Virus record (IMG/VR): IMGVR_UViG_3300046683_000683
Location: 1-45,591 of that record
Origin: a virus
Length of the DNA stretch: 45,591 nucleotides
Reading direction: 5' to 3' (one strand)
Part shown: one piece after another, positions 11,213 to 34,611 of the stretch
Layout: the number at the start of each line of letters is the position of its first letter
Numbering within the stretch: the stretch's first letter is position 1
Notes under the pieces: generated by a model
The model's input: only the letters and a program-made list of their open reading frames with translations
Databases searched by the model: none
What the model was told of the DNA's origin: nothing
Made by a program: the position numbers and the translations under genes

Positions 11213-11402
11213 GAGAGAAGTGCTAAAGCTTCTCCGAACCTTCGGCAAGGAGAGGCCGCTGCCTCGCAACCCCGATGCTCTGCCGCTTAGCGAAGTCGTC
11301 GAGGCAAGACCGAGCGACGATCCGCTATTCCATAAACCAACTCAGTTTAGTCTTTCCGGAGTGCCGAAGAAGCGCTCGGCGAAGCCGGAAGTGGAGGAGT
11401 GA
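11202..11402 (+). CDS. Hypothetical protein (66 aa)
   Basis: ATG at 11202 after GGGAGGCC. Basic N-terminus (MRSKREVLKLLRTFGKERPL) and a Pro/Ser-rich, probably disordered rest ending KKRSAKPEVEE. It lies between a basic helical protein and the glycosyltransferase, overlapping the end of the former. No function is recognised. Confidence 0.6.
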   Translation: MRSKREVLKLLRTFGKERPLPRNPDALPLSEVVEARPSDDPLFHKPTQFSLSGVPKKRSAKPEVEE

Positions 11403-12289
11403 TGAGACGAACAACTGTCCTCGTGGACGTTCTCCCCGGCGCTCTGACAAGCAGGAGCATTCTTCGCGTAGCGAAGGCGCTGAGGCGCTATGCTCCAGCA
11501 GACGTCGAGCTCGTCGAGCCGGAGACGCTAGACCCTGACCTCCACGTCCTGCACGTCATTGGCAGCGACGTGTTAACGCGGCCAGAGCTGACTCGCAGCA
11601 GCCGCTACGCCGTGATCCAGTATTGCTTCAAGACCGCAGGAGGCGAGCTCGAGGCTTGGCAGAAGCTGTGGAGCGGAGCGCAGCTGACGTGGAGCTACTA
11701 CAACCTCCCGATTCTCTCCGGACGCTTCATGTACTCCCCGCTCGGCGTGGACGAGAACTTCTACGAAATTCCCTCGCAGCAACCGGGGCTTCGCCGGATC
11801 GGAGTCGTCACTTCCGGCTTCGTCTCCGGTCCTCCGGCAGAAGCGATTGAAGAAGTCGCAGACGCTGCGCTTCGCGCTAACTGCTCTGTCTTCCATCTCG
11901 GTCCTCGAGGAATCGAGAACATGACCCCGCGACTCGAGGAGTCATGGTCGAATGCCATGAACATCTCCGACACCGAGCTGTGCTTCAAGTACAACCTCGC
12001 CCGCTACGTCTCCGGCCTCCGCTACATCGAAGGCTTCGAGATGCCAGTCGTCGAAGGCTTCGCTTGCGGTGCAGCTCCTATTGTCTTCTCCCGCGAGGAG
12101 ACGAGAGCGTGGTTTGCTCCGCCACTCGCGACTCATGTTCCGGAGTGCAGCGGCGAGGAGCTCGTTGAGCGACTCGTTGAGATTCTTCGGACGCCTCCAG
12201 CGAAGCTCGCTGATGCTGAGCGAGAACGACTGCTCGCGGAGTTCAACTGGCAAGTGATCGCCGAGCGCTTCTGGAAGGCGGTGCTCTGA
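11402..12289 (+). CDS. Glycosyltransferase, GT-B fold, group 1-like
   Basis: 295 aa from the ATG at 11402, which overlaps the preceding TGA. The C-terminal half carries the group 1/GT4 signature: YIEGFEMPVVEGFACGAAPIVF, where the two Glu residues of the E-x7-E motif bracket MPVVEGF. The middle has YSPLGVDENFYEI, a common donor-domain entry. The N-terminal half is shorter than in classic GT4 enzymes. The gene sits just before DNA ligase in the early/middle operon, away from the late sugar cassette, so it might modify phage DNA, a host target or a virion part. The substrate cannot be told from the sequence. Confidence 0.8.
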   Translation: MRRTTVLVDVLPGALTSRSILRVAKALRRYAPADVELVEPETLDPDLHVLHVIGSDVLTRPELTRSSRYAVIQYCFKTAGGELEAWQKLWSGAQLTWSYYNLPILSGRFMYSPLGVDENFYEIPSQQPGLRRIGVVTSGFVSGPPAEAIEEVADAALRANCSVFHLGPRGIENMTPRLEESWSNAMNISDTELCFKYNLARYVSGLRYIEGFEMPVVEGFACGAAPIVFSREETRAWFAPPLATHVPECSGEELVERLVEILRTPPAKLADAERERLLAEFNWQVIAERFWKAVL

Positions 12290-13137
12290 TGGTACTCGTA
12301 CAAGGCGGAAAGCTCGGATTGATAAACGACAGCCGCTTCATCTCGCCGATGCTGTGCGGTCTGTATCGTCCGGAGAAGAACGACATCGTTCCGGGCGAGT
12401 GGATCGCGGAAGAGAAGTTCGACGGCCACAGACTCATCGTGCTGAAGGAAGGCGCCGAAATCCAAAGCTGGAGTCGCTACGGCGAGCCGCGAGGTCTGCC
12501 GGCGCATCTCTGGGCTCAGATCGACGCTTGGCCAGACGGAGTCTACGATGGCGAGCTCCTGGTGCCAGGCGGCACCTCGAGCGATGTGAAGGCGACAGTC
12601 AGCGAGCGCGAGCTTCGACTCGTCATCTTCGACGTGCTCAAGCTCGGCAGGAACGACTGCACAAACGGAATGCCGTACTCGGAACGACGAAAGCTCCTCG
12701 ACTTCATCGTTGACTCCGAGTTGCCGATGCAATCGTCCGAGACGTTCGAGCTCAACTCCGCAGACGACGTCGATCTGCTGACCGTCTCAGTCTGGAACCG
12801 AGGCGGCGAAGGACTGATTCTCAAGCGCAAGGCGAGCAGCTACAAGCCCGCGAAGCGCAGCAAAGACTGGCTGAAGATCAAGAAACTCCACACCGCCGTC
12901 GTGACGCTCGTTGGCTACCAGCTCGGCCTGCTCGGACCTCAAGCTGTCGTCGTCGTTCGTGACAGCGAAGGCTTCCAGACGACCGTGAAGACTCTCAACA
13001 ACGCCGAACGCGCGAAGCTCGAGGCGGAGCCGAACAAGTTCATCGGCAAGAAGCTGGTGATCGAGTATCAAGAACGAACAGCAGATGGCAGCTATCGCCA
13101 CCCTCGCTGGGATCGCTGGGCGGAAGACAATGAATAA
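12289..13137 (+). CDS. ATP-dependent DNA ligase
   Basis: 282 aa; the ATG at 12289 overlaps the TGA of the glycosyltransferase gene. All nucleotidyltransferase motifs are visible: motif I EEKFDGHR with adenylated Lys43, motif III-like VYDGELL, VIFDVLK, motif IV EGLILK and motif V DWLKIKK. A C-terminal OB-fold follows (VVTLVGYQLG, KLVIEYQERTADGSYRHPRW). The length fits the minimal ligases of phages. It seals nicks in phage DNA during replication and recombination, and works with the nuclease genes on the opposite strand. Confidence 0.95.
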   Translation: MVLVQGGKLGLINDSRFISPMLCGLYRPEKNDIVPGEWIAEEKFDGHRLIVLKEGAEIQSWSRYGEPRGLPAHLWAQIDAWPDGVYDGELLVPGGTSSDVKATVSERELRLVIFDVLKLGRNDCTNGMPYSERRKLLDFIVDSELPMQSSETFELNSADDVDLLTVSVWNRGGEGLILKRKASSYKPAKRSKDWLKIKKLHTAVVTLVGYQLGLLGPQAVVVVRDSEGFQTTVKTLNNAERAKLEAEPNKFIGKKLVIEYQERTADGSYRHPRWDRWAEDNE

Positions 13138-14559: not shown

Positions 14560-15060
14560 GTGCCCTCAAAACCTCAAGGGTCGCCGTCGTCGACCGAAGC
14601 CGTGACGACGTTGCAAGACGACGTCTTCGCTCGGCCGTACTTCCAAGCTCAAACCATTGCCGTCATCAAGCCAGACGCAGTCGCGCGCAAGTTGCTCGGA
14701 ACGATTCTCGACAAGATCGAAGACGAACGTTTCGACATTCTCCGAGCTCACATGGTGCAGACAGCCGAGCGCGAACTCTGGGAGTCGTTCTACAGCCGAC
14801 AGCATGGCGATAAGGAATACTTCCCCTCGCTCGTGGAGTTCATGGCCTCCGGACCCTCCCTCGTGCTTCTGCTTCGCCGCCCGGATGCAATCAGCACCTG
14901 GCGCCGGCTCATGGGGCCGTTCAAGAATCCGCGGGAGCCGCACACGATCCGCGGTGAGTACATGCTCGACGGCGCTCCGCCGATGAAGAACCTCGTCCAC
15001 GGCTCAGACGGTCCGGAGTCGTTCCTCTGGGAGTTTCAATGTCTCGAGCACATCTTCTGA
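14560..15060 (+). CDS. ndk: Nucleoside diphosphate kinase
   Basis: 166 aa, longer than usual NDKs because of an N-terminal extension of about 30 residues (MPSKPQGSPSSTEAV...). The GTG at 14560 follows AAGGAG. Core motifs are intact: TIAVIKPDAV (Lys37), HTIRGEY (Arg131) and NLVHGSDGPES, with the phosphorylated His147. The enzyme transfers the gamma-phosphate of ATP to NDPs and dNDPs, supplying dNTPs. NDK genes are uncommon in phages and suggest a bid for independence in nucleotide supply. A stem-loop element precedes it. Confidence 0.93.
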   Translation: MPSKPQGSPSSTEAVTTLQDDVFARPYFQAQTIAVIKPDAVARKLLGTILDKIEDERFDILRAHMVQTAERELWESFYSRQHGDKEYFPSLVEFMASGPSLVLLLRRPDAISTWRRLMGPFKNPREPHTIRGEYMLDGAPPMKNLVHGSDGPESFLWEFQCLEHIF

Positions 15061-16265: not shown

Positions 16266-16615
16266 TCTTTGTCGTCCGGTGGCTTCGTCAGGCCTCGAGC
16301 TGCGAGCTGACCGTTGAGGTAGGAAAGCTGGTTCGACAGCTTCTCGAGCCGCTTGAGCAAGTCGCCGACGGCCGCTTGGACCCTCAGCTCCTCCTCCTTC
16401 TTCTCAAGGGCGATCATTGAGAAGCGTCGGTCGTTCTCGTCTGCACGCTTGGCGGCGGATCTTTCTGCATCGGCGAAGCGAGTCTCGATTGCTACGAACT
16501 TCGCGTCTAGCTCGCGCAGCCACGAGGCGATGAGCAGACGGGCGAGAATGGCATTCAAGCCAGACGCCGTAAGCCCACCGCCGATTACAGCTCCTACTGC
16601 CTCGGGGATAGTCAT
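16262..16615 (-). CDS. Small membrane-anchored coiled-coil protein (117 aa)
   Basis: ATG at 16615 overlaps the upstream stop (ATGA). A Gly/Ala-rich hydrophobic N-terminus (EAVGAVIGGGLTASGLNAIL) forms one membrane segment. It is followed by a long coiled coil (residues about 40-105, LEKKEEELRVQAAVGDLLKR). Such proteins occur in phage lysis regions, though a holin needs more hydrophobic length. It is the last gene of the late operon, next to a DUF5675 protein. The lysis role is inference. Confidence 0.6.
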   Translation of the reverse strand: MTIPEAVGAVIGGGLTASGLNAILARLLIASWLRELDAKFVAIETRFADAERSAAKRADENDRRFSMIALEKKEEELRVQAAVGDLLKRLEKLSNQLSYLNGQLAARGLTKPPDDKD

Positions 16616-17037
16616 CGCGCTGCCTCCTCGATCTGGGGAATGAAGTCCAGCACGACAAGTCGAAAGCGCTGGACGCCAGTTAGTAAGCTCATGAGCTCAG
16701 CGAAGCCGGCCTTGCTGTCAGCAATGCCAGGCAGCGCGCCGAAGATGCGACCGAATTCTTTGAAGCTTTCCCCGACGCCGATGCAGCCATCGAGGTCGGA
16801 GGCGTAGTTTGCTTTGTGCAACAGGATCCGATCGTGTCCTGGCACTTGCACCTCGAACGTCTCATATCCGCCAGCGTGGTAGAAGTCTCGCAGCGCGTCA
16901 TACTCACCAGGCGGAATCTTCACCCCGGAAGTGTAGTCGTGCTCGAGGGTCACAGCGAACGGCTGAGCGTTGAAGATCAGCACGCCGTAGACGCCGGAGG
17001 CAGTTGCAGCAACTCGAACAAGTACGAGCTTCAGCAT
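16612..17037 (-). CDS. DUF5675 family protein
   Basis: 141 aa; ATG at 17037 follows AAGGAG with a seven-base spacer. The sequence follows DUF5675: TLEHDYTSGVKIPPGEYDAL, then HDRILLHKANYASDLDGCIG with the conserved His, Asn and the DxxGCI motif. The family is common in phages and its activity is unproven; the conserved HxxN...GC pattern looks like an active site. It overlaps the downstream gene by four bases and follows the HExxH gene by one base. Confidence 0.85.
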   Translation of the reverse strand: MLKLVLVRVAATASGVYGVLIFNAQPFAVTLEHDYTSGVKIPPGEYDALRDFYHAGGYETFEVQVPGHDRILLHKANYASDLDGCIGVGESFKEFGRIFGALPGIADSKAGFAELMSLLTGVQRFRLVVLDFIPQIEEAAR

Positions 17038-17038
17038 C

Positions 17039-17845
17039 TCACCACTCCTTCTGCGGAACAGGCACGAGGGCAATGCGCCGCTCACGCAGCAGCACTTCCG
17101 CCTCGTCCACGAGGAACCACGCGAAGCCGAGGAAGGCGTGAAGCCAGTTCCGGCCCTCGGTCGTGGGCTCAGCAGCATCTTCTAGAATCTCAAGACCGAG
17201 CTTGGTCTTCGGCATGTTCACAGCTAGTCGCTGCTCGCCATCGGCGTGGCCGACAGCAGCGAGGTCGATGCCGAGCATAAAGCTCCAAGCATAGACGCCA
17301 TGCAGCAGGGCGCTGAAGGGTCGCGGCACGTCTCGACGAATCGGTGAGAAGTGCACGGCTGCGCCGTCGTTGTTGAACAAGACGCCATCGTGCTGCTCGA
17401 GGTCGATTCCGAGAACGTGGAGTCGCTGGTGAGCAATCTCATGAACGATGCCCTCAGCACAGCCTGTCGGATCGTTGACAGTCACAGAGATCGTTAGATT
17501 GCCATTCTCGTCTGTCGGTTGTTGATGACCGCTGCTGCAGCCGCGACCTTCACCCGCAGTCGTCGAGACGTGCGGGATGAAGGAGTCAATGAGCGCAGTC
17601 AGTGGCGGTGCGAGCTTCCAGCGCTTCAGCGCAACTGCTGCCTGCCAGACTCGGGCATCGTCGAACTCGGCGAGCTTCATCTCCGGCAGCATCAGCGGTC
17701 CAGCTGCGAGCTTGGTCCAGATGAACGCCAAGCCCTCAACCGGCGAGACTCGAGGCCAGCGAAGTCGCGCAAGCCGCTTGAGCTCAAGCGTGTCGCTACC
17801 GTCAGCTTGCGGTGCCGCCAACTTCGCATAGCCACTCAGTGCCAC
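17039..17845 (-). CDS. HExxH protein resembling peptide beta-hydroxylases of RiPP clusters
   Basis: 268 aa from a GTG at 17845, with GGAG seven bases upstream and a 10-base overlap with the preceding gene; longer frames start inside that gene. The metal-binding motif HEIAH (His135, Glu136, His139) lies in GCAEGIVHEIAHQRLHVLGI. It is followed by HFSPIRRDVPRPFSALLHGV, the second conserved block of the aKG-HExxH peptide modification family found beside FxsB-type radical SAM enzymes. The family members hydroxylate peptide side chains using iron and 2-oxoglutarate. With a radical SAM maturase in the same operon, a role in modifying a tail protein is likely but unproven. Confidence 0.7.
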   Translation of the reverse strand: MALSGYAKLAAPQADGSDTLELKRLARLRWPRVSPVEGLAFIWTKLAAGPLMLPEMKLAEFDDARVWQAAVALKRWKLAPPLTALIDSFIPHVSTTAGEGRGCSSGHQQPTDENGNLTISVTVNDPTGCAEGIVHEIAHQRLHVLGIDLEQHDGVLFNNDGAAVHFSPIRRDVPRPFSALLHGVYAWSFMLGIDLAAVGHADGEQRLAVNMPKTKLGLEILEDAAEPTTEGRNWLHAFLGFAWFLVDEAEVLLRERRIALVPVPQKEW

Positions 17846-19104
17846 GAGATCACTCCAGCCTCGGTCGTTCCGGACTTCACGAGCATCGAGGGCAGCGGCA
17901 GCCCTGACTTTGAGCAAAGCGTGCCGAGATCCTCGCCGGCGTACGTGTAGACGATTAGCTTCTTGATTCCACGCAAGCGAGTCAGCAGCGGAGCGAACTC
18001 GTCAGCGCGGATCTCGAGCAATCGGCCGGGCATCAGCAGTGCAGCGTCTGCGCCCCAAGCGTCGATGGGAAACGCTTCGAGCTTGCCGACGAGGAAGTCG
18101 ACTGCTGGATGGCGTCGAGCTCCTCGCGCTGCTCGCTCCTTGTCGCTCTCGACCCCGATGCACTTGAGCAGCGAGTTGCGAATCCACAGCTTCGAGAGCA
18201 GCGTTCCGTCTCCACAGCCGAGGTCGATGACTGTTCCATTGGTCTGGCCGCAAGCACTGAGAACGGTCGCGTGCGCAGCGGCCATTGCGTTGTAGGAGCT
18301 GAAGCCGTTGTCGGCATACGGCGTCGGCTCGATCTTCGGAACAGTCAGCTCGGCACTCGGCTGCCAAGAGAATCTCACCTCGCCGGGAGTGTAGTCGGTC
18401 GAGAATTCAAACTGGAAGCCGCGAGCTCGCACGTAGGCGAGGCCATGGTAGGCGCTGTACAGGGCAGGCAGTGAGAGAAGCTCGACGGCCGCTGCTGCTC
18501 CTGAGCCGAGACCAAGCTGGACGGCAACGCCGATCATCGCTTCAGCAATTGCTGCGCTCGCTGTGCAGGAGTAGGAGCAAGGAAGATGCGGAACGAGTCG
18601 GACGCCGAGCTGGCGAAGAAGAACATTCGTTCCAGGGTTGCCTCCGACCACGGTTGCGCCGTGTGCTTGCGCTCGCGCGCTATCACGCACGCCTGCAATC
18701 TGCCAAGTGTCACGGAAGAAGGCGCGGCAGCACGAGGGAAAGCCGAGCAGCTCACCGATGGCCTCGTCGTCGTTACGATCCCAAGCTTCTGTCCAACTCC
18801 GGCTGAAGCGAGTAAGCGCAACTCGCACGCCTAACGAGCCAGCCGTTGGCGTAGCATTTGAGTATGCTGCGCCTAGCGGTTGTTCAGTGAGAACGACAAG
18901 CTCGAGTCTGTTGTCCACGGCCCAGCGACTGAGAGACGGCAGCTCGCAGTATGGAACAGCGAGAAGACAGCTGTCTCGCTGGCGAAGCCGAACGCTCTCG
19001 CGCTCGAGCACCGGCCACGTTGCAGAAGCATCCGCGATCTTCCCACGGAGCGAGTCTGCATCCGCTGCCGAAGCCCAGATCGGACCGCGAACATACTCAC
19101 GCAT
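17836..19104 (-). CDS. DUF483-like domain fused to SAM-dependent methyltransferase
   Basis: 422 aa; ATG at 19104 after GGAGGAGG. The first half has LLGFPSCCRAFFRDTW (Cys125, Cys126) and RLVPHLPCSYSC (Cys176, Cys180), the Cys blocks I associate with DUF483. The C-terminal half is a class I methyltransferase with motif I TVIDLGCGDG (292-300) and an acidic loop, CIGVESD. The paired Cys motifs could bind metal or an Fe-S cluster. It lies between a tail-fibre region and the HExxH gene, overlapping both neighbours, so it probably acts in the same modification pathway. The DUF483 assignment is from memory of the pattern. Confidence 0.7.
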   Translation of the reverse strand: MREYVRGPIWASAADADSLRGKIADASATWPVLERESVRLRQRDSCLLAVPYCELPSLSRWAVDNRLELVVLTEQPLGAAYSNATPTAGSLGVRVALTRFSRSWTEAWDRNDDEAIGELLGFPSCCRAFFRDTWQIAGVRDSARAQAHGATVVGGNPGTNVLLRQLGVRLVPHLPCSYSCTASAAIAEAMIGVAVQLGLGSGAAAAVELLSLPALYSAYHGLAYVRARGFQFEFSTDYTPGEVRFSWQPSAELTVPKIEPTPYADNGFSSYNAMAAAHATVLSACGQTNGTVIDLGCGDGTLLSKLWIRNSLLKCIGVESDKERAARGARRHPAVDFLVGKLEAFPIDAWGADAALLMPGRLLEIRADEFAPLLTRLRGIKKLIVYTYAGEDLGTLCSKSGLPLPSMLVKSGTTEAGVISWH

Positions 19105-19462
19105 GCTGAACCTCCTCCTTCTTCTCGACCGTCTGCAGCAGCCAGTTGATTGTGTCGTGGATGATTCCCTGGACTTCAGGCCGCCAGGAGGTCGTCTGCA
19201 AGTAGCGGAAGATTAGCACGAGCTCGGCTTCAGTAATCTCGATCGTCGTCGGCCCTGGCAGAAGCCGAGGCATTCGAAGACCGTACGGCAGCGCCCGATC
19301 GTCTGGAACTGAAGCAGCGTCAAGCTTCTCGAGCAGCCGGGTCAAGTCAGCGAGCAAGAGAACATCCTGCTCGCGTGGCGCTGCCATCATCAGCGCGCCG
19401 TAGATGTATTGGAATCGGATGGGATCGGGATCGTCGGTGAAGCGAAGAACAGCAGTTGTCAT
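19097..19462 (-). CDS. Tail-region hypothetical protein (121 aa)
   Basis: ATG at 19462 with GAGGT upstream, overlapping the fibre stop (ATGA). Starts LRFTDDPDPIRFQYIYGALM; mostly helical, with ITEAELVLIFRYLQTTSW and NWLLQTVEKKEEV. It sits between a short fibre and the DUF483/methyltransferase gene. It could be a fibre chaperone or a partner of the modification enzymes; no family is recognised. Confidence 0.65.
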   Translation of the reverse strand: MTTAVLRFTDDPDPIRFQYIYGALMMAAPREQDVLLLADLTRLLEKLDAASVPDDRALPYGLRMPRLLPGPTTIEITEAELVLIFRYLQTTSWRPEVQGIIHDTINWLLQTVEKKEEVQHA

Positions 19463-20010
19463 GCGAACCTCTGAGCAACGATGAAGCTGTTGGCACGGAA
19501 GATTGTGTTGACAGCGACGGCAGCGTTCTGCGCCATCTGAATCTGAATTGCTCCGGCCGTGGTGCTGTTGATAACGAAGCCTTGCATGATGAGAGTGGTC
19601 TCGACGTTCAGACCGGTCAGCGCAAGCCCTGTGCCGTAGGCCGTGCCTGCGGAGCCAGTGCCTTCTCCGATGATGCCGAGCTGTCCGGTAGCGCCGGCAG
19701 GAGCAGTCGCTGTCACCTTGAACGTCGCTCCCGCGCCGCTGATGGCTTTGATGTATGCCGCCCACGCCCATTGCTCACTGGCAGCAATAGGGAATGTGAG
19801 ACCAGGCGCATCTCCGAGCGTTGTGTTGTTGTTCTTCGTCAGCGCGGAAGTCTGCTTACCGACGACAGGGTAGATCGGCAGCAGCGAGTCGTTGATGAGA
19901 ACGTTCACGAGAGACTTGAGAAAGTTGAGATTGTCTCGGACGTGCGTGTTCATCAAGTCCGCTGTGACGGTCTCGCCCGGGTTCCACGTTCGCGGAGTCG
20001 TCCACGCCAT
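19459..20010 (-). CDS. Short tail fibre protein (183 aa)
   Basis: ATG at 20010 directly follows the stop of the radical SAM gene, with GGGAGG upstream. The N-terminus WTTPRTWNPGETVTADLMN, then HVRDNLNFL, is the attachment module shared with two other proteins here (22841-23122 and 22037-22837). The rest is a Gly/Ala/Thr-rich beta region (APAGATGQLGIIGEG, TTLIMQGFVINSTTAGAIQI) typical of trimeric fibre tips. A receptor-binding role is likely. Confidence 0.8.
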   Translation of the reverse strand: MAWTTPRTWNPGETVTADLMNTHVRDNLNFLKSLVNVLINDSLLPIYPVVGKQTSALTKNNNTTLGDAPGLTFPIAASEQWAWAAYIKAISGAGATFKVTATAPAGATGQLGIIGEGTGSAGTAYGTGLALTGLNVETTLIMQGFVINSTTAGAIQIQMAQNAAVAVNTIFRANSFIVAQRFA

Positions 20011-21240
20011 TTACTTCCTCCCTCCGAAGTCGGTATGATCGCCATGAGCATCGCCGTGCTCGACAGCTGAAGAAGAGTTGAAGCCGCTGCCTCGAGAAGC
20101 GAGAGCGGAAGCACGACGGATGGAGACCTGACGTCCTGCCTCCCATTCCCAAAGGGCAGCGGCTTCGATCTGTTTGCGGTGCGGAGCGAGGCTGAGAGGC
20201 AGCTCGCGAGTTGCCAGAAGCGCTGCTTCGAGATGCTCGAAGAGGCGGAACCAGATGCCACAGTTCGCACTCCTGTTCCGCGGATCGCCGAGCATGGCTT
20301 CGCCAGGGCACTGGCCTTTGCACATTAGAAAGAATCGACAGTCAGCACAGCCGCCGTCGGCAAAGGGAGTAGCGTACAGCGCGAGCTGGCGAGCGTAGCT
20401 CGGCGTCTCCGACTTCAACCACGAGACGTCTGTCTTGTACGTTCTCGCGCAGTTCAGCAACTCTCCTTGCGGACCGACGGCCTGAACGGCCGCCGTCGTC
20501 TGCGGATCGCAAGCGTTCCAGATGCACGTCGTGCTCTCGTCGTCACCACGCAGGAGTGCCAGCATCTCCTTGAAGATGTCGAAGTGGATGCCGAGCATCG
20601 GCTCAGCTCGATGCAGGGTCACGAGAGCCTCGAACGCCTCCTCCTCGCCGAGCGCAAGCTTTGCCGCCTCCGGCGAATCCACCTCGAGAAGATGCAGTCG
20701 AGCATTCTGCAAGCCGAGCTCGGCTAGCGTCTGAAGCCACGAGAGGAGCAGCTTGATCCTCGAGCGCGAAGCGTTCAAGGAGTGAAGGGTGAGGATTAGA
20801 CTGCAAGGAATCTCGCGACGAAGCAACTCCTCAAGCGCAGCGCAACTCTTCGCCGTCGCGCTTCTCGTCGCTTCCAGCGTCTCGAGTCTTCGAGCGTCGT
20901 TGAGCTCGGCTGGTCCGTCGATGCTGACTCCGACGTGCGTCTTGTACTTCTCGAACATCTCGAAGTGTGCCTCAGTGATTAACGAGGCGTTCGTCTGAAC
21001 TCCGGAGGAGCCGCTAAGCTTGAAGCTGCTCTCAAGAAACTTCTCGAGATCAGCAAGAGGAGTAAGGAGTGGCTCGCCTCCGAACACCGTGAAGCCCGAG
21101 CTTCCGCCGATCTTCTCGAGGCTCGCGAGCATCTTGTCCATGGAGTAGGGTGGCGCTGCAACTTCTCGCACTGTCTCCTGGTAGCAGTACGTACAGCGAA
21201 GGTTGCAGCGAACTCCGACCGGCATTGCTTCGACTGTCAT
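20011..21240 (-). CDS. Radical SAM/SPASM peptide or protein maturase with HxD tail
   Basis: 409 aa; ATG at 21240 overlaps the upstream TGA. The CxxxCxxC cluster motif is CNLRCTYC (Cys12, 16, 19), followed by GGEPLL. The C-terminal SPASM region has CIWNACDP, LLNCART, CADCRFFLMCKGQCPGEA and NCGIWF, enough Cys for auxiliary Fe-S clusters. Such enzymes install carbon-carbon, thioether or ether crosslinks in peptides. The last 19 residues (AVEHGDAHGDHTDFGGRK) are an unusual extension matching the HxD repeats of the fibre encoded two genes upstream. It lies inside the tail-fibre operon, so a structural protein is the likely substrate. Confidence 0.9.
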   Translation of the reverse strand: MTVEAMPVGVRCNLRCTYCYQETVREVAAPPYSMDKMLASLEKIGGSSGFTVFGGEPLLTPLADLEKFLESSFKLSGSSGVQTNASLITEAHFEMFEKYKTHVGVSIDGPAELNDARRLETLEATRSATAKSCAALEELLRREIPCSLILTLHSLNASRSRIKLLLSWLQTLAELGLQNARLHLLEVDSPEAAKLALGEEEAFEALVTLHRAEPMLGIHFDIFKEMLALLRGDDESTTCIWNACDPQTTAAVQAVGPQGELLNCARTYKTDVSWLKSETPSYARQLALYATPFADGGCADCRFFLMCKGQCPGEAMLGDPRNRSANCGIWFRLFEHLEAALLATRELPLSLAPHRKQIEAAALWEWEAGRQVSIRRASALASRGSGFNSSSAVEHGDAHGDHTDFGGRK

Positions 21241-22022
21241 AGCCCGAGTCCTGTCGGAGGAGTCGGCGGCGTGACGGCAGGGTTTATCAAGATCGTGTAG
21301 GATCCCTGTCCGGTTGCGCCGAGCGAGTCGGTTGCGAGAACTCGAAACGTCTTCGTCTGCGCAAGCGTAGGCGTGCCAGTGATCGTGCCGTCGATATTCA
21401 CCACGAGCCCTTGCGGTGGCCGGTCTGGACTGACGAGAGCGAAGGAGCTAAAGACTCCGCTTCCGCCCATGGCGCTGACTCTCGAGGAGTATGGAACGCT
21501 GACTTGGCCAGTCGGCAACGTGGCCGGCAGCATCGTGACGGGATGAGGCAGCGCGGCGGTAGGGTAGATTTCAATCACAAGAGTCCTCGTGCCGATTGCT
21601 CCGGCGGAATCTGTCACGGAGAAACTGATCGTCTGCCGCTGGACGCTTGTCGGCACGCCGTAGATCACGCCGGTCGTTTCGTCGAGTGAGAGACCGATCG
21701 GAAGTCGAGCTCCACCGTTGAAACCGTACTTGACGTAGTTTCCCGTTCCGCCGGAGGCGCTGATCTGCGCAGCGTAGCTGACGTTGACTGCTCCAGCCGG
21801 CAGCGAAGCAGGGATGACCGTTATCGGCTGGACTTGCAGCAGCAGTGCGTCGATCTGAGCTTGCATGGAGTCCAGTACAGCTTGCGTTCCGTTCAAGTCG
21901 CGAATGCGAGCTTGGACGAAGGCAATTACATCGTCTGTCGTGATTCGGCCCTTGGAGGCTAGGAGCAAAGCTTCCACTTGCCTCGCAAACGTCAGCAGCT
22001 CAGATGTGATATCGACTGCCAT
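21237..22022 (-). CDS. Tail fibre/adhesin with two Ig-like (He_PIG) domains
   Basis: 261 aa; ATG at 22022 after AGGAGAG. An N-terminal helical segment (LLTFARQVEALLLASKG...DDVIAFVQARI), likely coiled coil, is followed by two similar beta domains. Each has the He_PIG signature of the form LPxGxxxVxYxxxxxxxGGxG and GLxxxxxxGxIxGxPT (LPAGAVNVSYAAQISASGG...GVIYGVPT and LPTGQVSVPYSSRVSAMGG...GTITGTPT). Such domains mediate weak binding to cell-surface polymers. It ends in a Pro-rich tail. The gene lies directly upstream of the radical SAM gene, overlapping by four bases. Confidence 0.85.
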   Translation of the reverse strand: MAVDITSELLTFARQVEALLLASKGRITTDDVIAFVQARIRDLNGTQAVLDSMQAQIDALLLQVQPITVIPASLPAGAVNVSYAAQISASGGTGNYVKYGFNGGARLPIGLSLDETTGVIYGVPTSVQRQTISFSVTDSAGAIGTRTLVIEIYPTAALPHPVTMLPATLPTGQVSVPYSSRVSAMGGSGVFSSFALVSPDRPPQGLVVNIDGTITGTPTLAQTKTFRVLATDSLGATGQGSYTILINPAVTPPTPPTGLGL

Positions 22023-22036
22023 CGGTCTCTCCTCTT

Positions 22037-22837
22037 CTACGTCGGCTGGTCGCCGTGAGCGACGTCACCGTGGCCGGCATCAGTATGAGTATCGGTATGA
22101 GTATCGCTATGCGTGTCAACATGCGCGGCATCCGCATGAGCGTCAGCATGACCGGTGTCCGAGTGATCGGTGTGAGAGTCTTGATGCGCAGTGTCGGTAT
22201 GCGTATCGCTGTGCGTGTCAACGTGCGCAACGTCGCCATGGCCGGAGTCAGTGTGAGAGTCAATATGACCGAACATCTCACTTGTGCCGGTCTGAATAAT
22301 CCAATGGAGATAAGTCGTCTCGCCCCAGAGGCTCGCCGCGCTTGCAGCTGCGTCGCTGTGCATTGCAGTCGCTGCGCCGGGAACGATTCTCTCGACGCCA
22401 GTCGAGGAGATGTAGTGGAGATCGCTGCCCTCGATCCAGATGCTCCCAGCGAGCGCGCCACCGCCAGGCGAGCCGTTCGAGGTGCCAGCGAACGTCTTAG
22501 TCGTTCCTGCGGAATCCTTGTAGACAAGGTTCTGCCCGACGACTGCCATGTCTCCTGCATCCGTCCCCGTGTACGCTCCTTCAACCGGGATGACTAGTCT
22601 TCCTGCTCCGCTGAAAGTGTTCTTCGCCGTCAGCGTGTTTGCCGAGGCGAGCAGCCCGACTCCTGTTAGATTGAGTCCGCTGAGGTCGAGGAGGTAGGAG
22701 GAGCTGAGTCCGAGAATCTTCCCCGCGTCGTTCCGAGATGTCTTCAGCACGTTCAGATTGTCGCGAATCTGCTCGTTGAAGTCGTCGTGATCCGGAATCG
22801 GAATCGTCGACCAGTCAACAGGAGTATGCCAGCTCAT
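22037..22837 (-). CDS. Tail fibre with C-terminal His-X-Asp repeat array
   Basis: 266 aa, ATG at 22837. Three regions are visible: an attachment module (MSWHTPVDWS...EQIRDNLNVL), a beta region (SANTLTAKNTFSGAGRLVIP, shared with the gene upstream, up to about residue 190), and a tail of 73 residues (191-263) built of 17 HxD units separated by zero to two residues. The repeat has an extreme composition (His, Asp, Thr, Ser, Ala, Gly). It could coordinate metal ions along a trimeric fibre axis or be the substrate of the nearby radical SAM and HExxH enzymes. Both roles are inference. Confidence 0.85.
   Translation of the reverse strand: MSWHTPVDWSTIPIPDHDDFNEQIRDNLNVLKTSRNDAGKILGLSSSYLLDLSGLNLTGVGLLASANTLTAKNTFSGAGRLVIPVEGAYTGTDAGDMAVVGQNLVYKDSAGTTKTFAGTSNGSPGGGALAGSIWIEGSDLHYISSTGVERIVPGAATAMHSDAAASAASLWGETTYLHWIIQTGTSEMFGHIDSHTDSGHGDVAHVDTHSDTHTDTAHQDSHTDHSDTGHADAHADAAHVDTHSDTHTDTHTDAGHGDVAHGDQPT
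22049..22267 (-). repeat. His-X-Asp codon repeat, 17 units
   Basis: Encodes residues 191-263 of the fibre: H-I-D, H-T-D, H-G-D, H-V-D, H-S-D and so on. The DNA contains related but non-identical 9-12 base units, for example around GTATGAGTATCGGTATG, so the array probably grew by slippage and then diverged at synonymous sites. Confidence 0.85.
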
Positions 22838-23132: not shown

Positions 23133-24728
23133 TTACGTACTCAGCCGAGTGTCTGTGCCAGTCGTGCTGACACCGAGCAGCCAGAAGCGATTCCAGAGCC
23201 CGTAGGCGAGCTTGGTTGTCTGATCGAGCTGGGATTGCGTAGCGCTGTCGAGAATCCAGTAGACATCCCGCGAAGCGGGAGCGAGCGTCCAAGTGCAGTG
23301 CATAACGTACTCTTCATCAACGGTGATCTGAACTCGGTTGATGAAGAAGTCCGCACTGACTCCCGTTACCTCGTCTTGGATTGTGATTCGGTCGCTGATT
23401 TCTCGAACGATTGCTTGCTCTGTGAAGGTTGCGTCTCCACAGATGAAGCCGCATTGCTCGGGGATTGTGTCCTCGGTCTTGTTCGTGTTGAGCAAGTAGT
23501 ACGCGGCTTGCCGAGCGATCTCTGTCTGCGCTTGGTACGGCATCTCGAACGGCAGCGACTGATCGCCAACATCTGCTTGGCTCGTTGCGTCTGCTGCTTC
23601 GAAGATAACCTCGCCATTGTCATAGATTCCGATTCCTCGCAGCTGGTTGAGGTTGAGATAGCCGTCTTGAGGACCGTTGTTCGTAACGACAATGTCTGCC
23701 GCGTTGCCGTAGGCGACTGTTCCGGTGAAGCTGAGCTGAGAAGTGATGTTCGTTCCGCTGCCGTCCTGTGCGGTGTTGAAAAGATAATCGGTCGTGGCGG
23801 TCGGAGGAATCTGAACGCTCGAGGCTTGAGCGCCGATGCGCTGGGAGTCTTGACTGTTGTCCTTGTACAGCGCTTTGATTGTGTAGCTCGTTCCTCGGGG
23901 AATGAACGGCTTGTCTTGCTGTGTGTAGATGACCGTCAACGAGGCGTCTTGCCGCCGCGGGTGCATCTTCACAAGGACTCGGTTGAAGATGTTGTCTCGC
24001 GAGCGCTTAGGATCGAGCGCGTTGACTGAGGTGAAAGTCGCAACGGAAGTCAGATTCGTTCCGCGAGCTCGCCGATCCTCGAAGACCACGAGTCCGTCGT
24101 TGACGCTGTCTCCCTTCGGATAGAAGAAGCCGAGCTCGGAGTTGCAGATTTTCTGAATCTCACCGAGCGCTGCGAGTCCTTCGTCTCGAGCCGTGTCGAA
24201 GGCGAAAGGATACGTCTCCATGCCGAAGCCAATCTGCCGAGTGATCGGTTGCTTCACCATGGAGTTTAGAAGTGTCGTGATAAGCTCGTCGCTGCGCTTG
24301 TTCGTCTGGACGTCGAGACCTTTCACCGTTGCGCGCGCCGCCTCGTCCATCCAGTCGACGGCTTGGAAGATTGTCCTCTGCTCGCCATACAGTCCCGGAA
24401 TCGGAGCAATCTCGCTAATCCTCCCGTTCCACTTGTAGTAGGTTGGAACGAGAGGATCATAGGCGAACCAAGCTCGAACAGGCGTGCCGAGCTTGAAGCC
24501 GCTGCGAGCATTCGCATGGCCGGGAGAATAGAGTCCGACTTTCTTCTGACTGTTGTTCGCGGAGTTGTTCAGCGCGCCATGAAGCGTGCCAGTATCAGCA
24601 ACTCGATCACTTGGACTCTTTCCCGAGATGCCGTAGTCGAAGTCAATCGGCCGGATGAGATCATCATCCACGCTCGTCCACACGCCTGGCGAGAACTGCA
24701 TCTCGACGTGGAGAGTGAACTCACTCAC
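23133..24728 (-). CDS. Minor tail / tail-tip hub protein
   Basis: 531 aa, ATG at 24728, overlapping the tape measure stop by four bases. Position (after tape measure, before fibres), length and beta-rich sequence fit the hub or distal-tail protein of siphoviruses. Features include SPGVWTSVDDDLIRPIDFDY near the start and VYWILDSATQSQLDQTTKLA near the end, the latter a common ending in actinophage-like minor tail proteins. It would link the tail tube to the fibres and probably contacts the DNA-ejection path. No enzymatic motif is seen. Confidence 0.8.
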   Translation of the reverse strand: MSEFTLHVEMQFSPGVWTSVDDDLIRPIDFDYGISGKSPSDRVADTGTLHGALNNSANNSQKKVGLYSPGHANARSGFKLGTPVRAWFAYDPLVPTYYKWNGRISEIAPIPGLYGEQRTIFQAVDWMDEAARATVKGLDVQTNKRSDELITTLLNSMVKQPITRQIGFGMETYPFAFDTARDEGLAALGEIQKICNSELGFFYPKGDSVNDGLVVFEDRRARGTNLTSVATFTSVNALDPKRSRDNIFNRVLVKMHPRRQDASLTVIYTQQDKPFIPRGTSYTIKALYKDNSQDSQRIGAQASSVQIPPTATTDYLFNTAQDGSGTNITSQLSFTGTVAYGNAADIVVTNNGPQDGYLNLNQLRGIGIYDNGEVIFEAADATSQADVGDQSLPFEMPYQAQTEIARQAAYYLLNTNKTEDTIPEQCGFICGDATFTEQAIVREISDRITIQDEVTGVSADFFINRVQITVDEEYVMHCTWTLAPASRDVYWILDSATQSQLDQTTKLAYGLWNRFWLLGVSTTGTDTRLST

Positions 24729-27700
24729 TTCTTCACCGCCTGAGTCTTGATCTGCGCATCTCGGAAAGCTCGCTGCAGCATTGCTGGCAGGACTGTCCGC
24801 ATGTCTTGCCGCAGTGAGCGCAGCTCGTTGAGCGTTGCATGTCCGCCGTCTCCCGCGCTCGAGGCAGCAGACGCGCCGCCGCCTGAGAACGAAGTCGATG
24901 CCGTCATCGGCAACGCCGCGGTCATCTGCCCTGCGGTCGAGGCTACGACTTCTCCCGTGAACGCTTGCAGCTGCGGCTTCGTAACAACTGCCTCGATACC
25001 ATGGAGCACTGCGAGCATTCCGCTTCCGTAGTTCTGAAAGCCGTCGCTGCCGCCAGCGTAGCCAGGCGTCCCGGGCGGCGGACCGTAGGCAAGGCTGTCA
25101 GGTCCTGCAGGAATCCCGGCCGGAACGTTTGGATCAGGAATCGCGTTGATTGCTGTTGCTGCTTTCTTGGCCGCGGCCGGAATCTCTGCTCCGAGCACTT
25201 CAGCAATGCTGCGCAGCAGCTCGACCATCTGCTCCATCGGATCAGTCGGGAAGGCGACGCCAGCAGCAGTAGCTTGGTCAATGAGCGCTTGAGTATTTGC
25301 GTCGATGGCGAAGCCATACTTCTTGCTGGCGTCAATGATCTGCCCGAGCTGCGGAGCAAGCGCCTGGTACAGAGCGGTGCCGTTCACTCCTGCTTCGCTC
25401 AGTGCATTCGCTGTTCCGCTGATCGCACTCTCGAGACCAGTGAACGTCCCTAGCGTCACGAAGCCAAGCTTGTCCATTGCTCCGAACTGCTGACTCATGC
25501 CGTCGAGGACTTCGAGGAAACCTTTCACCGAAGGATCGGTCTGGTTGTTGATGACGTTCGCGAGCTGAACGAACGGCGCGAGCAGTGCAGCAGCTGCCGT
25601 GTTCCCTTCAGCCGAAAGCTTGTTGTAGAAGTCGACGATCTTGTCTCCCTGATCCTCGAGTGCTTGGACCAGGCCCTTCTCCGCAATCTCCGCTTGGAAG
25701 CCACCGACGAAGAACTCGGCAGCTGCCGAGCCCATCTCGCCGAGAGGAACGTCCTTGGCAATGTTGGTGATTCCTTCGAGAATTTTGTCTGCGCCAGCCT
25801 CGAGCTCGCTGATTGCCTGCTGAGCGTACTCCTTCATGTTCGCCGTAAGCTCGCCGGTTGCGATTGCTTGCTGGAACAGTTGAGCCGTTAGCTTCTTCGA
25901 TGCAGCCGTGCCCTCGTCTGCGAGCTGACCGAAGAGCTTGTCGATCTCCGCCAGTCCTTCTTTCGCTGGCGCTGTGCCATCGGCGACTGCCGTCATGAGC
26001 TCGCCAATCTTGTCTGCGAACTCGCTGGCGCCTTTGCCACTGTCCTCGATGATCTTGTCGAGGTTCAGGAGCTCGGCAACGCTTCGAGAAACCTTCGCGC
26101 TCGACTCCGTCGACTCGATTGCTTTGGCCGTGGCCTCAGTGATGTCGACTCCCCACTCCTTGCCAACTTCGCTCATCACCTTCTTATACTCCGGCTTGTG
26201 GAAGAGCGACTTCACTGCCGAGAAGACTTTCGTCGCTCCGGAGATCACGGCTGTGATCTTCTGAGTAATGTCTCCCTTCATAAAGTTGCCGGCATCGGTT
26301 AGAAGTCCTGCGCCGAGCTTCGAGACTCCTCCAAGCGCCTTGCCGATCTTCCCACCGAGGGCGTCGAACATTCCGCCGAGACCATCGAGCAGCCCGCCCA
26401 TCTCTCCCATCTTCCGAAGCTCCTCGTTGAGCTTCGCCTGTTGCTCCTTCACTCCTTCCGTTGCAGTCGCAACAGCGATGAGATTCTGTCCTCGTTCCGT
26501 CAACTGACCGTCGACCGTGTTCTCCAGCGTGATCTGTGCAACTTGAGCCGCGAGCTGCATCTTGAGATTCGCCAGAGTGCGATCGAGGCTAGGCTGCAAG
26601 CTGTTCAGCGCATCGTTCCAGCCGATGAGAGACTGAAGGTATTGCTGCTGATACCGAACTGCTTCCTCAACGGCGTTCTGAGATGCCACGACCGCGTGCA
26701 TCGACTGAGCCCAGAGCGTTGTCTCCGTTCTCAACTTCGCAATCGTAGCAGCGAGCATTGGGTACTTGGCGAGTTGTTCGGAAAGCTTAACGTTAAACTC
26801 GTCGGCTTTCTGGTCGATGTCGCTCTGAGCTTTCTGATACTGCGTCATGCCAGCTTGCGTGACGCCGAGCCACATCTTATTCAGCTCGACGCCAAGCTTC
26901 TGAGCGGCAGCGTTTGCTTGCTCCTGGTCTTTCGTCAACTTCTGCCAGGAGTCGCCGAGCGCTTTGCCATGGCCGGCAGCGACAGCCGCTGCTGTTCCCG
27001 CGTGTTCGATGCCGTGCTGCAGCTTGCCTGCTCCGTCGAAGACGGCATCCACAACCTTGAGCGCTTTGCCCCAGCCCTGAAGGTGTGCCGCAACGGTCTT
27101 CCTCGTCTCCTCAGTCGTCTTCGCAAGCGACTTGGTATACTCATTCCACGCTGACTTGACTCCGTCAATCGAGCCGTGCTCCAAGGAAGCGAGCGCTTTG
27201 CCGAGGAAGAGAATACTCGCTACGAGCATCTTCGCTCCGCCAACTGCGGAGTCGAAGACGACGTTGAGATAGCCGAAGTAGAGCAGCGCGCCGCCAATGA
27301 CTGCAACGAGCACGCGGAAAGCGCCGACCGCGTAGTAGAGACCGACCTCGACGAGTTTGCGAATCTCCTCCTTGTGCCTGTTGACCCACGCTGTTGCTTG
27401 GACAATGGCATCGGTAACGGTGTTGATTACGAGATGCAAGGCTTCGCTGTTGGCAATTGCTCCGCCGATGTTGTGCTCCATCGACTCGAGGGCGATGCTG
27501 ACTCCCTTAAACTTGATCGCCAGCTCGGCGCCAGCCTTGATGTCTTCCTCGCTCATGACTGCCCCGAGCTCATGCGCGCGTTTCTTCAGCTCAGCGAGAT
27601 GCTCTGCCATCGGCAGTATCTCGCGGAAGCCTCGGCCAAGCAGCGCAGCTGCGTCTGCCGCTCTCCGCGCGGGATTCTCGATGCCTGAGAGATGCTCGAG

Positions 27701-28183
27701 AACGTCGGAGAGTGCTTTGTCCGGAGATTCGTTCCGAAGCTTCTCGAAGCTCAAGCCGAGGTCGCTGACAGCTTCGATTGTCTTCGACGATCCTTCGCCG
27801 AGACTCTTCTCGAGCTTCGCGCTGGCGCCTGTAAGCGCGTCAACGCTAACGCCAGAGAGTCGAGCCGCAATCGCCATTTCTTGGTAGGCGTCGGTCGACA
27901 TCTGCGCTTTGGCAGCAGCGACTTCTGTCTCATGCGCGAACTCAGCAGTCTTCTCCGTCAGCTCGCCGAGGGCAACGAACGTTCCGACAACTGCAGTCGT
28001 GACGACGAGCAAGCCTGCGGCAACAGCACCAGCCCCGCCTGCTGCCAGCGTGCCGAGGGAGAGATTGAAGTGTTCGAATTTCCCTTCTGCATGTTCAATC
28101 CCGTGCTCGAACTTCTCGAAGGCCTCGTGGAACTTCTCTCGAACCTCGAGGCTTGCACCGATTACGCCTAGATCAAGACTCAT
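24725..28183 (-). CDS. Tape measure protein
   Basis: 1152 aa, the longest gene here. ATG at 28183, four bases after the stop of the frameshifted chaperone. Helical, Ala/Leu/Glu-rich throughout, with hydrophobic segments near residues 45-75 (GTLAAGGAGAVAAGLLVVTT) and 265-315, and Gly-rich stretches in the C-terminal part. This is the usual make-up of siphovirus tape measures, which set tail length and pass through the host membrane. Downstream of the G/GT pair as expected. No lytic domain is recognised within it. Confidence 0.95.
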   Translation of the reverse strand: MSLDLGVIGASLEVREKFHEAFEKFEHGIEHAEGKFEHFNLSLGTLAAGGAGAVAAGLLVVTTAVVGTFVALGELTEKTAEFAHETEVAAAKAQMSTDAYQEMAIAARLSGVSVDALTGASAKLEKSLGEGSSKTIEAVSDLGLSFEKLRNESPDKALSDVLEHLSGIENPARRAADAAALLGRGFREILPMAEHLAELKKRAHELGAVMSEEDIKAGAELAIKFKGVSIALESMEHNIGGAIANSEALHLVINTVTDAIVQATAWVNRHKEEIRKLVEVGLYYAVGAFRVLVAVIGGALLYFGYLNVVFDSAVGGAKMLVASILFLGKALASLEHGSIDGVKSAWNEYTKSLAKTTEETRKTVAAHLQGWGKALKVVDAVFDGAGKLQHGIEHAGTAAAVAAGHGKALGDSWQKLTKDQEQANAAAQKLGVELNKMWLGVTQAGMTQYQKAQSDIDQKADEFNVKLSEQLAKYPMLAATIAKLRTETTLWAQSMHAVVASQNAVEEAVRYQQQYLQSLIGWNDALNSLQPSLDRTLANLKMQLAAQVAQITLENTVDGQLTERGQNLIAVATATEGVKEQQAKLNEELRKMGEMGGLLDGLGGMFDALGGKIGKALGGVSKLGAGLLTDAGNFMKGDITQKITAVISGATKVFSAVKSLFHKPEYKKVMSEVGKEWGVDITEATAKAIESTESSAKVSRSVAELLNLDKIIEDSGKGASEFADKIGELMTAVADGTAPAKEGLAEIDKLFGQLADEGTAASKKLTAQLFQQAIATGELTANMKEYAQQAISELEAGADKILEGITNIAKDVPLGEMGSAAAEFFVGGFQAEIAEKGLVQALEDQGDKIVDFYNKLSAEGNTAAAALLAPFVQLANVINNQTDPSVKGFLEVLDGMSQQFGAMDKLGFVTLGTFTGLESAISGTANALSEAGVNGTALYQALAPQLGQIIDASKKYGFAIDANTQALIDQATAAGVAFPTDPMEQMVELLRSIAEVLGAEIPAAAKKAATAINAIPDPNVPAGIPAGPDSLAYGPPPGTPGYAGGSDGFQNYGSGMLAVLHGIEAVVTKPQLQAFTGEVVASTAGQMTAALPMTASTSFSGGGASAASSAGDGGHATLNELRSLRQDMRTVLPAMLQRAFRDAQIKTQAVKK

Positions 28184-28186: not shown

Positions 28187-28531
28187 TCATTTGCTCCCGG
28201 TGACGAATGCGAAGGCAGCTTTCGCCGCTGCCTTCAACTGCTGCCACGTCTTGCGAGGCGGTTCGTAATCTCCGAACCGGAGAAGTACGTCGCTTACACT
28301 TACCGGCGAGGCACCTTTAGCTCGGTTGACGTTGACAATTGCGCTAGTAATCTGTGCTGCTCGCATGTCTGCTCGCTCCTCATCGAACGGCTCGACTTCT
28401 GCGAATGCCATCCATTCTACTAGCTGCTCCCACGTGATCTGCGAGAGCATATGGTCGACGTTTACGTGCCCGAGCTTTGCTGCAAGCCGATAGGCGAAGC
28501 GACGTACCTCGCCCCGCCCTAGTCGTTTTTT
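28187..28531 (-). CDS. Tail assembly chaperone GT extension (made by -1 frameshift)
   Basis: This frame has no ribosome site of its own and is read by -1 slippage on A AAA AAC at 28531-28525, just before the stop of the G-like gene. It adds about 113 residues (KKRLGRGEVRRFAYRLAAKL and onward, including SQITWEQLVEWMAFAEVEPF) to the upstream protein. The T-type domain with its WExLxEWxAF-like core is typical of Gp-T in lambda-like tails. GT binds the tape measure and recruits tail tube subunits. The stop lies four bases before the tape measure start. Confidence 0.88.
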   Translation of the reverse strand, partial: KKRLGRGEVRRFAYRLAAKLGHVNVDHMLSQITWEQLVEWMAFAEVEPFDEERADMRAAQITSAIVNVNRAKGASPVSVSDVLLRFGDYEPPRKTWQQLKAAAKAAFAFVTGSK

Positions 28532-28926
28532 GCTTCGGCCTTTGCGTCTTTCTTGTTGAGACCGTTGAGCTCGAGGGCGGCGTCCTGGATTCTGTTGATC
28601 GCCTTCAGGCTCTTCTTCCTCAGCGCGTCCACGTCTGCCTCGCTGAAGAGCGGCTTGCCGTCGTCGCCGATGATGCAGATCACGAGCAGTCGAATCGCCG
28701 CCTTGCTCTTGTCGGTCTTCGAGCGCTCGTGGAAGTCGATTGCTTCTTCCGCACTGAGCGAGCGAATCGTTACGGAGCCGTTCCACTCCGGCACGTCGAC
28801 TTCAACGGTCTTGACGTCAACGACGTCCAGGATCTCTTTCGCCGAAAGCTTGCGCTTGCGGACTGCGTTGAAGGTTTCCTGAGAAACAACGTTGTCCTTG
28901 ACCGCTTCGTCTTTCTCGTTCTCCAT
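28519..28926 (-). CDS. Tail assembly chaperone G-like protein
   Basis: 135 aa; ATG at 28926. Acidic, helical protein (LSAEEAIDFHERSKTDKSKA, LRKKSLKAINRIQDAALELNG) in the canonical place between tail tube and tape measure. It ends DAKAEAKND and stop; the final codons GCA AAA AAC form the slippery site that yields the longer GT form. G alone is made in excess over GT in known phages. It coats the tape measure during assembly and is absent from virions. Confidence 0.88.
   Translation of the reverse strand: MENEKDEAVKDNVVSQETFNAVRKRKLSAKEILDVVDVKTVEVDVPEWNGSVTIRSLSAEEAIDFHERSKTDKSKAAIRLLVICIIGDDGKPLFSEADVDALRKKSLKAINRIQDAALELNGLNKKDAKAEAKND
28525..28531 (-). other. -1 ribosomal frameshift site AAAAAAC
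   Basis: On the minus strand the codons GCA AAA AAC GAC TAG contain the classical X XXY YYZ heptamer A AAA AAC. Shifting back by one base continues as AAA CGA CTA GGG CGG, entering the open T-type frame. The heptamer lies two codons before the zero-frame stop, as in other G/GT pairs. Confidence 0.88.
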
Positions 28927-34259: not shown

Positions 34260-34272
34260 TCCGCCTCGTGCT

Positions 34273-34611
34273 TCACGCAAAGTACACCACTTCGTGATGA
34301 GAACCGTTCTCGTCGGGCTCGAGGTTGACTGCGATCGGCTCCGGAGATGCAGGAGAAAACTGCGCCGGCAGCGAAAGCTCGTAGTCAATCGTGAGTCCGT
34401 AGACTCCGGCAACGTACATCGTCACGGCCGACTTCTTCTCCACGCCCGAGACTTGAACTTGCCTATGCTGATTCACGCAACGGCCGTAGATGACTTGTCC
34501 GCTACCATAGGCAGTTGGCGCGCCAAGAATGTCTCTCGAGAGAATCTGCCTTGCCGTCACGGCATGAGGGAACATGCCTTCGGTAAGCAAGTCGTCGACT
34601 ATACTCCTCAC
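34273..34611 (-). CDS. Head-tail connector / neck protein (112 aa)
   Basis: GTG at 34611 overlaps the preceding TGA. A beta-rich protein with VIYGRCVNQHRQVQVSGVEK and YVAGVYGLTIDYELSLP, followed by an acidic end. Its place after the first connector and before the neck protein suggests head-tail joining or head completion. No confident family match. Confidence 0.65.
   Translation of the reverse strand: MRSIVDDLLTEGMFPHAVTARQILSRDILGAPTAYGSGQVIYGRCVNQHRQVQVSGVEKKSAVTMYVAGVYGLTIDYELSLPAQFSPASPEPIAVNLEPDENGSHHEVVYFA

Follow-up and report, generated by a model that had tools for sequence, protein, structure and literature searches.

What is the substrate of the enzymes encoded among the tail-fibre genes of an uncultivated virus? 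The question is raised by IMG/VR virus record IMGVR_UViG_3300046683_000683, a 45.6-kb stretch of DNA (hereafter the window) in which protein families were assigned with Pfam and NCBIfam profile scores. Here, a radical S-adenosylmethionine (SAM) enzyme with a SPASM domain, a DUF483-like protein fused to a methyltransferase and an aKG-HExxH protein are encoded close to a tail fibre that ends in repeated His-x-Asp (HxD) triplets (Table 1). We found that widely different viruses inherit the genes for such a fibre, the radical SAM enzyme and DUF483 together, as neighbours that overlap in most cases, and the HxD fibre is very probably the substrate of the radical SAM enzyme. We consider it reasonably likely that the enzyme cross-links the HxD tail of the fibre, that the DUF483/methyltransferase protein and sometimes the HExxH protein decorate this tail, and that the genes form a fibre-maturation cassette of tailed viruses, with a chemistry that we infer.

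An HxD-repeat fibre is linked to the radical SAM and DUF483 genes

The C-terminal end of the window fibre contains 17 HxD triplets within 75 residues. This region mixes the two codons of His, the two of Asp and several of those for Thr, Ala and Ser; the repeat is therefore maintained at the protein level and is not a DNA microsatellite. The N-terminal half contains GS-I/V-WIEG..LHYI repeats that are shared with Cumys_13, the HxD protein of Thermus phage Cumys. The N-terminus common to the neighbouring fibres was considered as the mark of a substrate and rejected, because relatives without it still keep the HxD repeats. An earlier sequence-only reading of this locus had named the HxD fibre in passing and had not developed the terminal triplets as a clue to the substrate.

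Scans of IMG/VR with each of the three enzymes as a single protein gave no matches, whereas profiles from Thermus phages did find relatives. Among cultured phages, tblastn with the radical SAM enzyme gave close matches only in Thermus phages phiMa, Cumys and phiLo (40-46%). Relatives with 29-48% identity were located in Thermus phages, a Chengkuizengella chromosome, a haloarchaeal provirus and more than 30 viral contigs, and nearly always adjoin an HxD fibre gene, with DUF483 downstream. The radical SAM gene of phiMa and Cumys is immediately preceded by a gene that encodes 53-54 HxD triplets and is followed by one for DUF483. DUF483 also adjoins the radical SAM gene in phiLo, where three HxD proteins (55, 101 and 72 triplets) are encoded within about 10 kb, beside a baseplate wedge gene. 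The profile search reached viral contigs L085-L093 and L103-L107 and the Chengkuizengella chromosome (L005), in which an HxD protein adjoins the radical SAM enzyme and DUF483 follows; the single exception is L086, a short phiLo-type fragment that has DUF483 and no HxD protein within its length. The adjoining HxD open reading frame (ORF) was on the same strand in L005, L085, L087-L093, L103, L104, L107, phiMa and Cumys. In contrast, none of the 88 other radical SAM loci from the same scans (L006-L084, L094-L102) had an ORF with at least five HxD per 40 residues, and one reached four. The same trio was observed in two further Bacillota genomes (L359 and L360, among 398) and in a haloarchaeal provirus (L355), where it adjoins a baseplate J gene. 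No radical SAM enzyme of this clade was found at E ≤ 1e-45 in 297 Acidobacteriota, 396 Actinomycetota and 398 Pseudomonadota genomes, an empty result that carries little weight.

We also performed the search in the reverse direction, scanning IMG/VR blind to the enzymes with two DNA patterns for HxD repeats (spacing of 4 or 5 residues). Among the matches listed, at least 43 loci had an ORF with at least 12 HxD, and 24 of 43 hold a radical SAM gene of the clade, DUF483 or both; three of these 24 are contigs already known from the enzyme-first search. Among the 19 listed loci without the enzymes nearby, four belong to contigs where the radical SAM gene does occur, reading frames of tandem or low-complexity type account for about ten, and the others are three fragments with an L328-type fibre, one 10-kb fragment and L293. 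At L344, on the record of L328, two fibres that mix His-x-Asn and His-x-Asp adjoin the radical SAM and DUF483 genes, and another HxD fibre, which is collagen-like, is encoded about 50 kb away. This arrangement suggests that the enzyme acts in trans and accepts Asn.

The sequence-only reading had proposed virion fibres as the substrate, and these comparisons strongly support the proposal for the HxD fibre; the Ig-domain fibre and the small fibre, which it had included, are outside the conserved unit.

The radical SAM enzyme carries the motif of its predicted substrate

Pfam and NCBIfam matches and the Cys pattern confirmed the three enzymes, with the positions, strand and overlaps that had been read from the sequence. 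The radical SAM enzyme scores 55 bits against Pfam Radical_SAM (cut-off 29.5). The Cys residues of its CxxxCxxC motif (C12, C16 and C19) are invariant in 15 relatives, as are eight further Cys (C239, C244, C264, C298, C301, C307, C311 and C327), a pattern that points to a full SPASM domain with two auxiliary clusters. The best PDB matches of its AlphaFold model (predicted local distance difference test, pLDDT, 82) are anSMEcpe and ChlB, a multiple-cyclophane synthase, over the whole length, and sequence comparison likewise points to anSME and ChlB.

The C-terminal tail of the enzyme mimics the substrate motif. At least two HxD were present in the last 110 residues of 32 of 40 radical SAM enzymes of the clade, compared with 0 of 95 other radical SAM ORFs. 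The enzyme may modify its own tail, or the tail may anchor it to the fibre. At L151 (10391-13315), one HxD fibre gene is followed by two radical SAM genes of the clade in tandem, the first of which encodes 12 HxD in its tail.

The repeats follow an aromatic-x-Asp/Asn rule

To characterize the motif, we analysed 60 non-redundant HxD regions, which come from 40 loci and comprise 8609 residues with 1586 His. Position +2 of His was occupied by Asp in 93.2%, Asn in 4.4%, Glu in 0.7% and His in 0.4%; as the regions were selected on HxD density, part of the high Asp share is built in, while the preference for Asn over Glu and the enrichment of aromatic residues are not. Where Asp had no His at -2 (n=368), Tyr, Trp or Phe occupied that position in 47.8%, compared with 7.5, 4.3 and 7.1% at -1, -3 and -4 of the same Asp and a background of 7.2%. 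Such aromatic-x-Asp triplets without His numbered 176, against 32.5 ± 5.1 when the free residues were shuffled, and none of 2000 permutations was as high. Trp-x-Asp and Tyr-x-Asp are abundant in L360 and L107. The enrichment at -2 indicates that the rule is aromatic-x-Asp/Asn.

This rule matches the pattern of three-residue cyclophanes formed by radical SAM enzymes, in which an aromatic ring is bonded to the C-beta two residues on (i to i+2); known cross-links include Tyr C3 to C-beta of Asp (YxdB), Trp to C-beta of Asn or Asp (OscB), and His C2 to C-beta of Ala (HaaB) or Arg (YhhB) (PMC11002830). We lean towards such a cyclophane, joining the aromatic ring to the C-beta of Asp or Asn, as the product. 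The genetic evidence for the fibre as substrate would apply equally to another radical SAM chemistry, such as a dynobactin-like C-N bond from His nitrogen to Asp C-beta, epimerisation, or a ring-free oxidation of Asp or His, which we regard as rather unlikely. The His imidazole can be joined via its nitrogen, and the best NCBIfam match of the enzyme is DynA, the dynobactin maturase (78.5 bits, cut-off 450), followed by AmcB (71.7, cut-off 425) and GrrM/OscB (52.6, cut-off 310). However, Tyr, Trp and Phe substitute for His, and Phe has no heteroatom through which a C-N or ether bond could form; a strict i, i+2 spacing and the choice of Asp/Asn over Glu also suit a ring at C-beta better than a ring-free change.

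The tip of T4 gp37 binds iron through HxH motifs. A metal-binding fibre tip, whose ligands the enzymes merely tune or which they leave alone to act elsewhere, is improbable here. His and Asp are good metal ligands, and the HExxH protein could yield beta-hydroxy-Asp, a strong chelator; metal binding would be compatible with cyclophanes too. A ligand array should, however, accept both Glu and His at +2, which are rare there, and Trp and Phe, which do not bind metal, are enriched at the His position. The tight linkage to the radical SAM enzyme would also be left unexplained.

DUF483 belongs to the core and HExxH is an accessory

The window protein scores 18.7 bits against DUF483 (PF04467), under the Pfam gathering cut-off of 25, and 13 of 16 of its relatives match the family at E ≤ 0.01 (best 7e-6); it is related to DUF483 without being a formal member. 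The motif GxLxGxPxCC and a third Cys are nearly or fully invariant among relatives, most of which are encoded directly downstream of the radical SAM gene. The C-terminal half is a class I methyltransferase, and a fold search of the model gave PDB matches for this half only and none for the DUF483 half. The methyltransferase domain is often fused to DUF483, but is absent in phiMa, Cumys, phiLo, L005, L086, L092 and L107.

The HExxH protein matches NCBIfam TIGR04267 (aKG-HExxH) with 53.3 bits (cut-off 40), and both its HE..H motif and a second conserved block, FSALLHG..Y, align with relatives, as the sequence-only reading had recognized. Matches over the cut-off were found in 4 of 41 records (the window, L085, L171 and L185). 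A scan of IMG/VR for HExxH relatives gave three loci (L362, L363 and L364), every one of which is such a cassette with all four genes; two have the window order of fibre, radical SAM, DUF483-methyltransferase and HExxH. Co-occurrence in related phages, a check proposed by the earlier reading, therefore extends to the HxD fibre, radical SAM and DUF483, which form the core, with a methyltransferase that is not universal and HExxH as an accessory. In passages of PMC12636437, aKG-HExxH enzymes of the ChlH type hydroxylate Asp and His once the cyclophane is in place, which fits an HxD substrate. The HxD regions of the window, L085, L171 and L185 contain 0, 1, 1 and 1 Tyr/Trp/Phe, respectively; this near-absence at HExxH-bearing loci may reflect kinship rather than specificity.

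Observations that weigh against fibre cross-linking

Several observations weigh against cross-linking of the fibre by this enzyme. The window HxD region itself contains no Tyr, Trp or Phe, and the aromatic rule thus rests on relatives. A bond from His to the C-beta of Asp is not among the cross-links described in the cyclophane papers cited here, each half of it being described. Judged by scores far under the cut-offs, the radical SAM enzyme is not assigned to the DynA, AmcB or GrrM/OscB subfamilies, and its AlphaFold model has moderate confidence around the active site and does not order the HxD tail. The placing of the HxD protein in virions is deduced from its gene position. Contig L293 (205,857 bases) encodes a protein of nearly perfect HTDTA tandem repeats, with 48 HxD, and carries no radical SAM gene of the clade. 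Two further points would favour DNA as the substrate. A 2024 paper on the 'rSAM module' of Cumys and phiMa, in its passages on this module, reports prophage loci of a similar kind and homologues in cyanobacteria that lie near deazapurine genes, and proposes modification of phage DNA by the radical SAM-DUF483 pair, with no HxD repeats or fibre substrate in those passages (PMC11437467). In addition, a Halorussus aquaticus plasmid (L354, 10001-12206) has the pair in a non-viral setting, with no HxD protein in 21 kb, and the pair may have other substrates in cells.

We nevertheless consider DNA modification very improbable: the module is located among tail genes and directly adjoins an HxD fibre in dozens of viruses, the fold of the radical SAM enzyme is that of peptide-modifying enzymes, and the enzyme itself bears the substrate motif. 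When more than 40 loci were checked for enzymes independent of fibres, as the sequence-only reading had proposed, the plasmid was the only exception, which favours the link to the fibre. Enzyme families typical of clusters for ribosomally synthesized and post-translationally modified peptides (RiPPs) could suggest an ordinary RiPP cluster within the phage, with a small unannotated peptide as substrate and the fibres as bystanders, but this is hardly credible, as the conserved neighbour is a fibre-like HxD protein of 180-1290 residues and not a short leader-core peptide with cleavage, no conserved small ORF was seen, the radical SAM enzyme has no extra leader-binding sequence beyond the SPASM fold, and the motif statistics would be unaccounted for. 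The earlier remark that no small precursor is evident was correct; a precursor-like partner is nonetheless present, a role that suits the HxD fibre.

Genomic context of the cassette

The cassette lies beyond the tape measure gene of a terminase-portal-head-tail operon on the minus strand that runs towards lower coordinates, in which terminase, portal, head proteins, tail assembly protein and tape measure were identified. The cassette genes are all on one strand, and neighbours share 4-10 bases or abut. The two glycosyltransferase genes and the aminotransferase gene of the window point to possible virion glycosylation in addition to fibre modification.

Table 1 Coordinates of the cassette and of other features in the window.
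Feature	Coordinates	Strand	Remarks
HxD-repeat tail fibre, predicted substrate, 266 aa	22037..22837	minus	19 HxD in whole protein, 17 C-terminal
HxD region, 17 His-x-Asp triplets, predicted cross-link carrier	22049..22267	minus	
Radical SAM/SPASM enzyme, predicted cyclophane-forming fibre maturase	20011..21240	minus	Pfam/NCBIfam, Cys pattern, AlphaFold model
C-terminal HGDAHGDHTD tail of radical SAM enzyme	20029..20058	minus	mimics substrate motif
DUF483-like domain (LLGFPSCC) fused to class I methyltransferase, predicted partner/methylating enzyme	17836..19104	minus	
Alpha-ketoglutarate-HExxH peptide beta-hydroxylase, accessory	17039..17845	minus	TIGR04267 over cut-off
Ig-domain (He_PIG) fibre	21237..22022	minus	between HxD fibre and radical SAM; outside conserved unit
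Small fibre	19459..20010	minus	shares only a short N-terminal motif with HxD fibre; outside conserved unit
Short paralogue of HxD fibre N-terminus, 93 aa	22841..23122	minus	60% identity to first 85 aa; directly upstream of HxD fibre
Tail gene	23133-24728	minus	after tape measure, before fibre genes and enzymes
Tape measure	24725-28183	minus	upstream of enzyme genes
Tail assembly protein	28187-28786	minus	upstream of enzyme genes
Glycosyltransferase and DegT/DnrJ-type aminotransferase	30262-31506, 33222-34412	minus	within head-tail operon
Second glycosyltransferase-like gene	11399-12289	plus	opposite strand
ATP-dependent DNA ligase	12289-13137	plus	
Nucleoside diphosphate kinase	14560-15060	plus	
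DUF5675 protein	16612-17043	minus	
PD-(D/E)XK nuclease	580-1791	minus	

Proposed fibre maturation and comparison with known systems

In the maturation that we propose, the radical SAM enzyme would act in the infected cell with no RiPP leader, recognising successive aromatic-x-Asp/Asn triplets in the C-terminal tail of the fibre while this is unfolded. It would join the aromatic ring of residue 1, always a His imidazole in the window, by a C-C bond to the C-beta of Asp or Asn at residue 3. The tail would thereby become a chain of three-residue cyclophanes, each with a mass change of -2 Da and numbering up to 17 in the window fibre. Our guess for DUF483 is that it would assist, probably in substrate handling; the fused methyltransferase may methylate the product, and HExxH, where present, would add beta-hydroxyls to His or Asp. 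This would yield a distal tail spike that is stiff and resists proteases and heat, possibly with a part in receptor contact. We give even chances to the full picture, in which tailed viruses infecting bacteria and archaea form a polycyclophane spike with a dozen to about a hundred His/Tyr/Trp/Phe-to-Asp/Asn rings per chain, using a dedicated leaderless radical SAM enzyme, sometimes with hydroxylation and methylation.

Cross-links made by radical SAM enzymes are known from small natural products. A virus structural protein that is densely cross-linked in this way would represent a new use of such enzymes and a new material. Fibres of this kind would make up a new class of viral structural proteins with cross-links, and the His-Asp cyclophane would be a new linkage. 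Such maturation would account for an odd HxD repeat family, offers a testable function for DUF483 and for the radical SAM genes of cultured Thermus phages, and would bear on the survival and binding of virus fibres from hot springs, salt and soil. The enzymes of the cassette, some of them thermophilic, may install many rings on long chains. A literature search, with poor coverage of subscription papers, found no HxD or His-Asp repeat fibres. Radical SAM genes of Campylobacter phages were set aside as a parallel, being described without a fibre link.

anSMEcpe matures a full-length protein, recognising a local motif. It is the closest solved fold (PDB 4k36-4k39), with a full SPASM domain and two auxiliary clusters, but it converts Cys or Ser to formylglycine at sites that are not repeated. 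The module of Cumys and phiMa has the gene set and order of the window, namely HxD protein (Cumys_13), radical SAM enzyme (46% identical) and DUF483, and differs in having neither methyltransferase nor HExxH. The triceptide enzymes XncB, OscB, YxdB, HaaB and YhhB (PMC11002830) are likewise SPASM radical SAM enzymes that join an aromatic residue to C-beta at i+2 and accept Asp or Asn, some members also accepting His and Tyr, and the cassettes have the corresponding repeated aromatic-x-(Asp/Asn) triplets in a predicted substrate encoded beside the enzyme. The triceptide enzymes act on short precursor peptides, whereas the predicted substrate here is the tail fibre of a virus and offers 13 to 100 sites, and the window enzyme is nearer to anSME and DynA in profile score than to the triceptide enzymes. 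ChlB, whose structure (PDB 9gm3) is a top fold match of the window enzyme, is a radical SAM enzyme fused to the aKG-HExxH protein ChlH, and in the passages of PMC12636437 on this pair several cyclophanes are formed per chain and Asp or His is then hydroxylated; in the window, by comparison, the two genes are separate, HExxH is optional, DUF483 is added and the predicted substrate is a structural protein.

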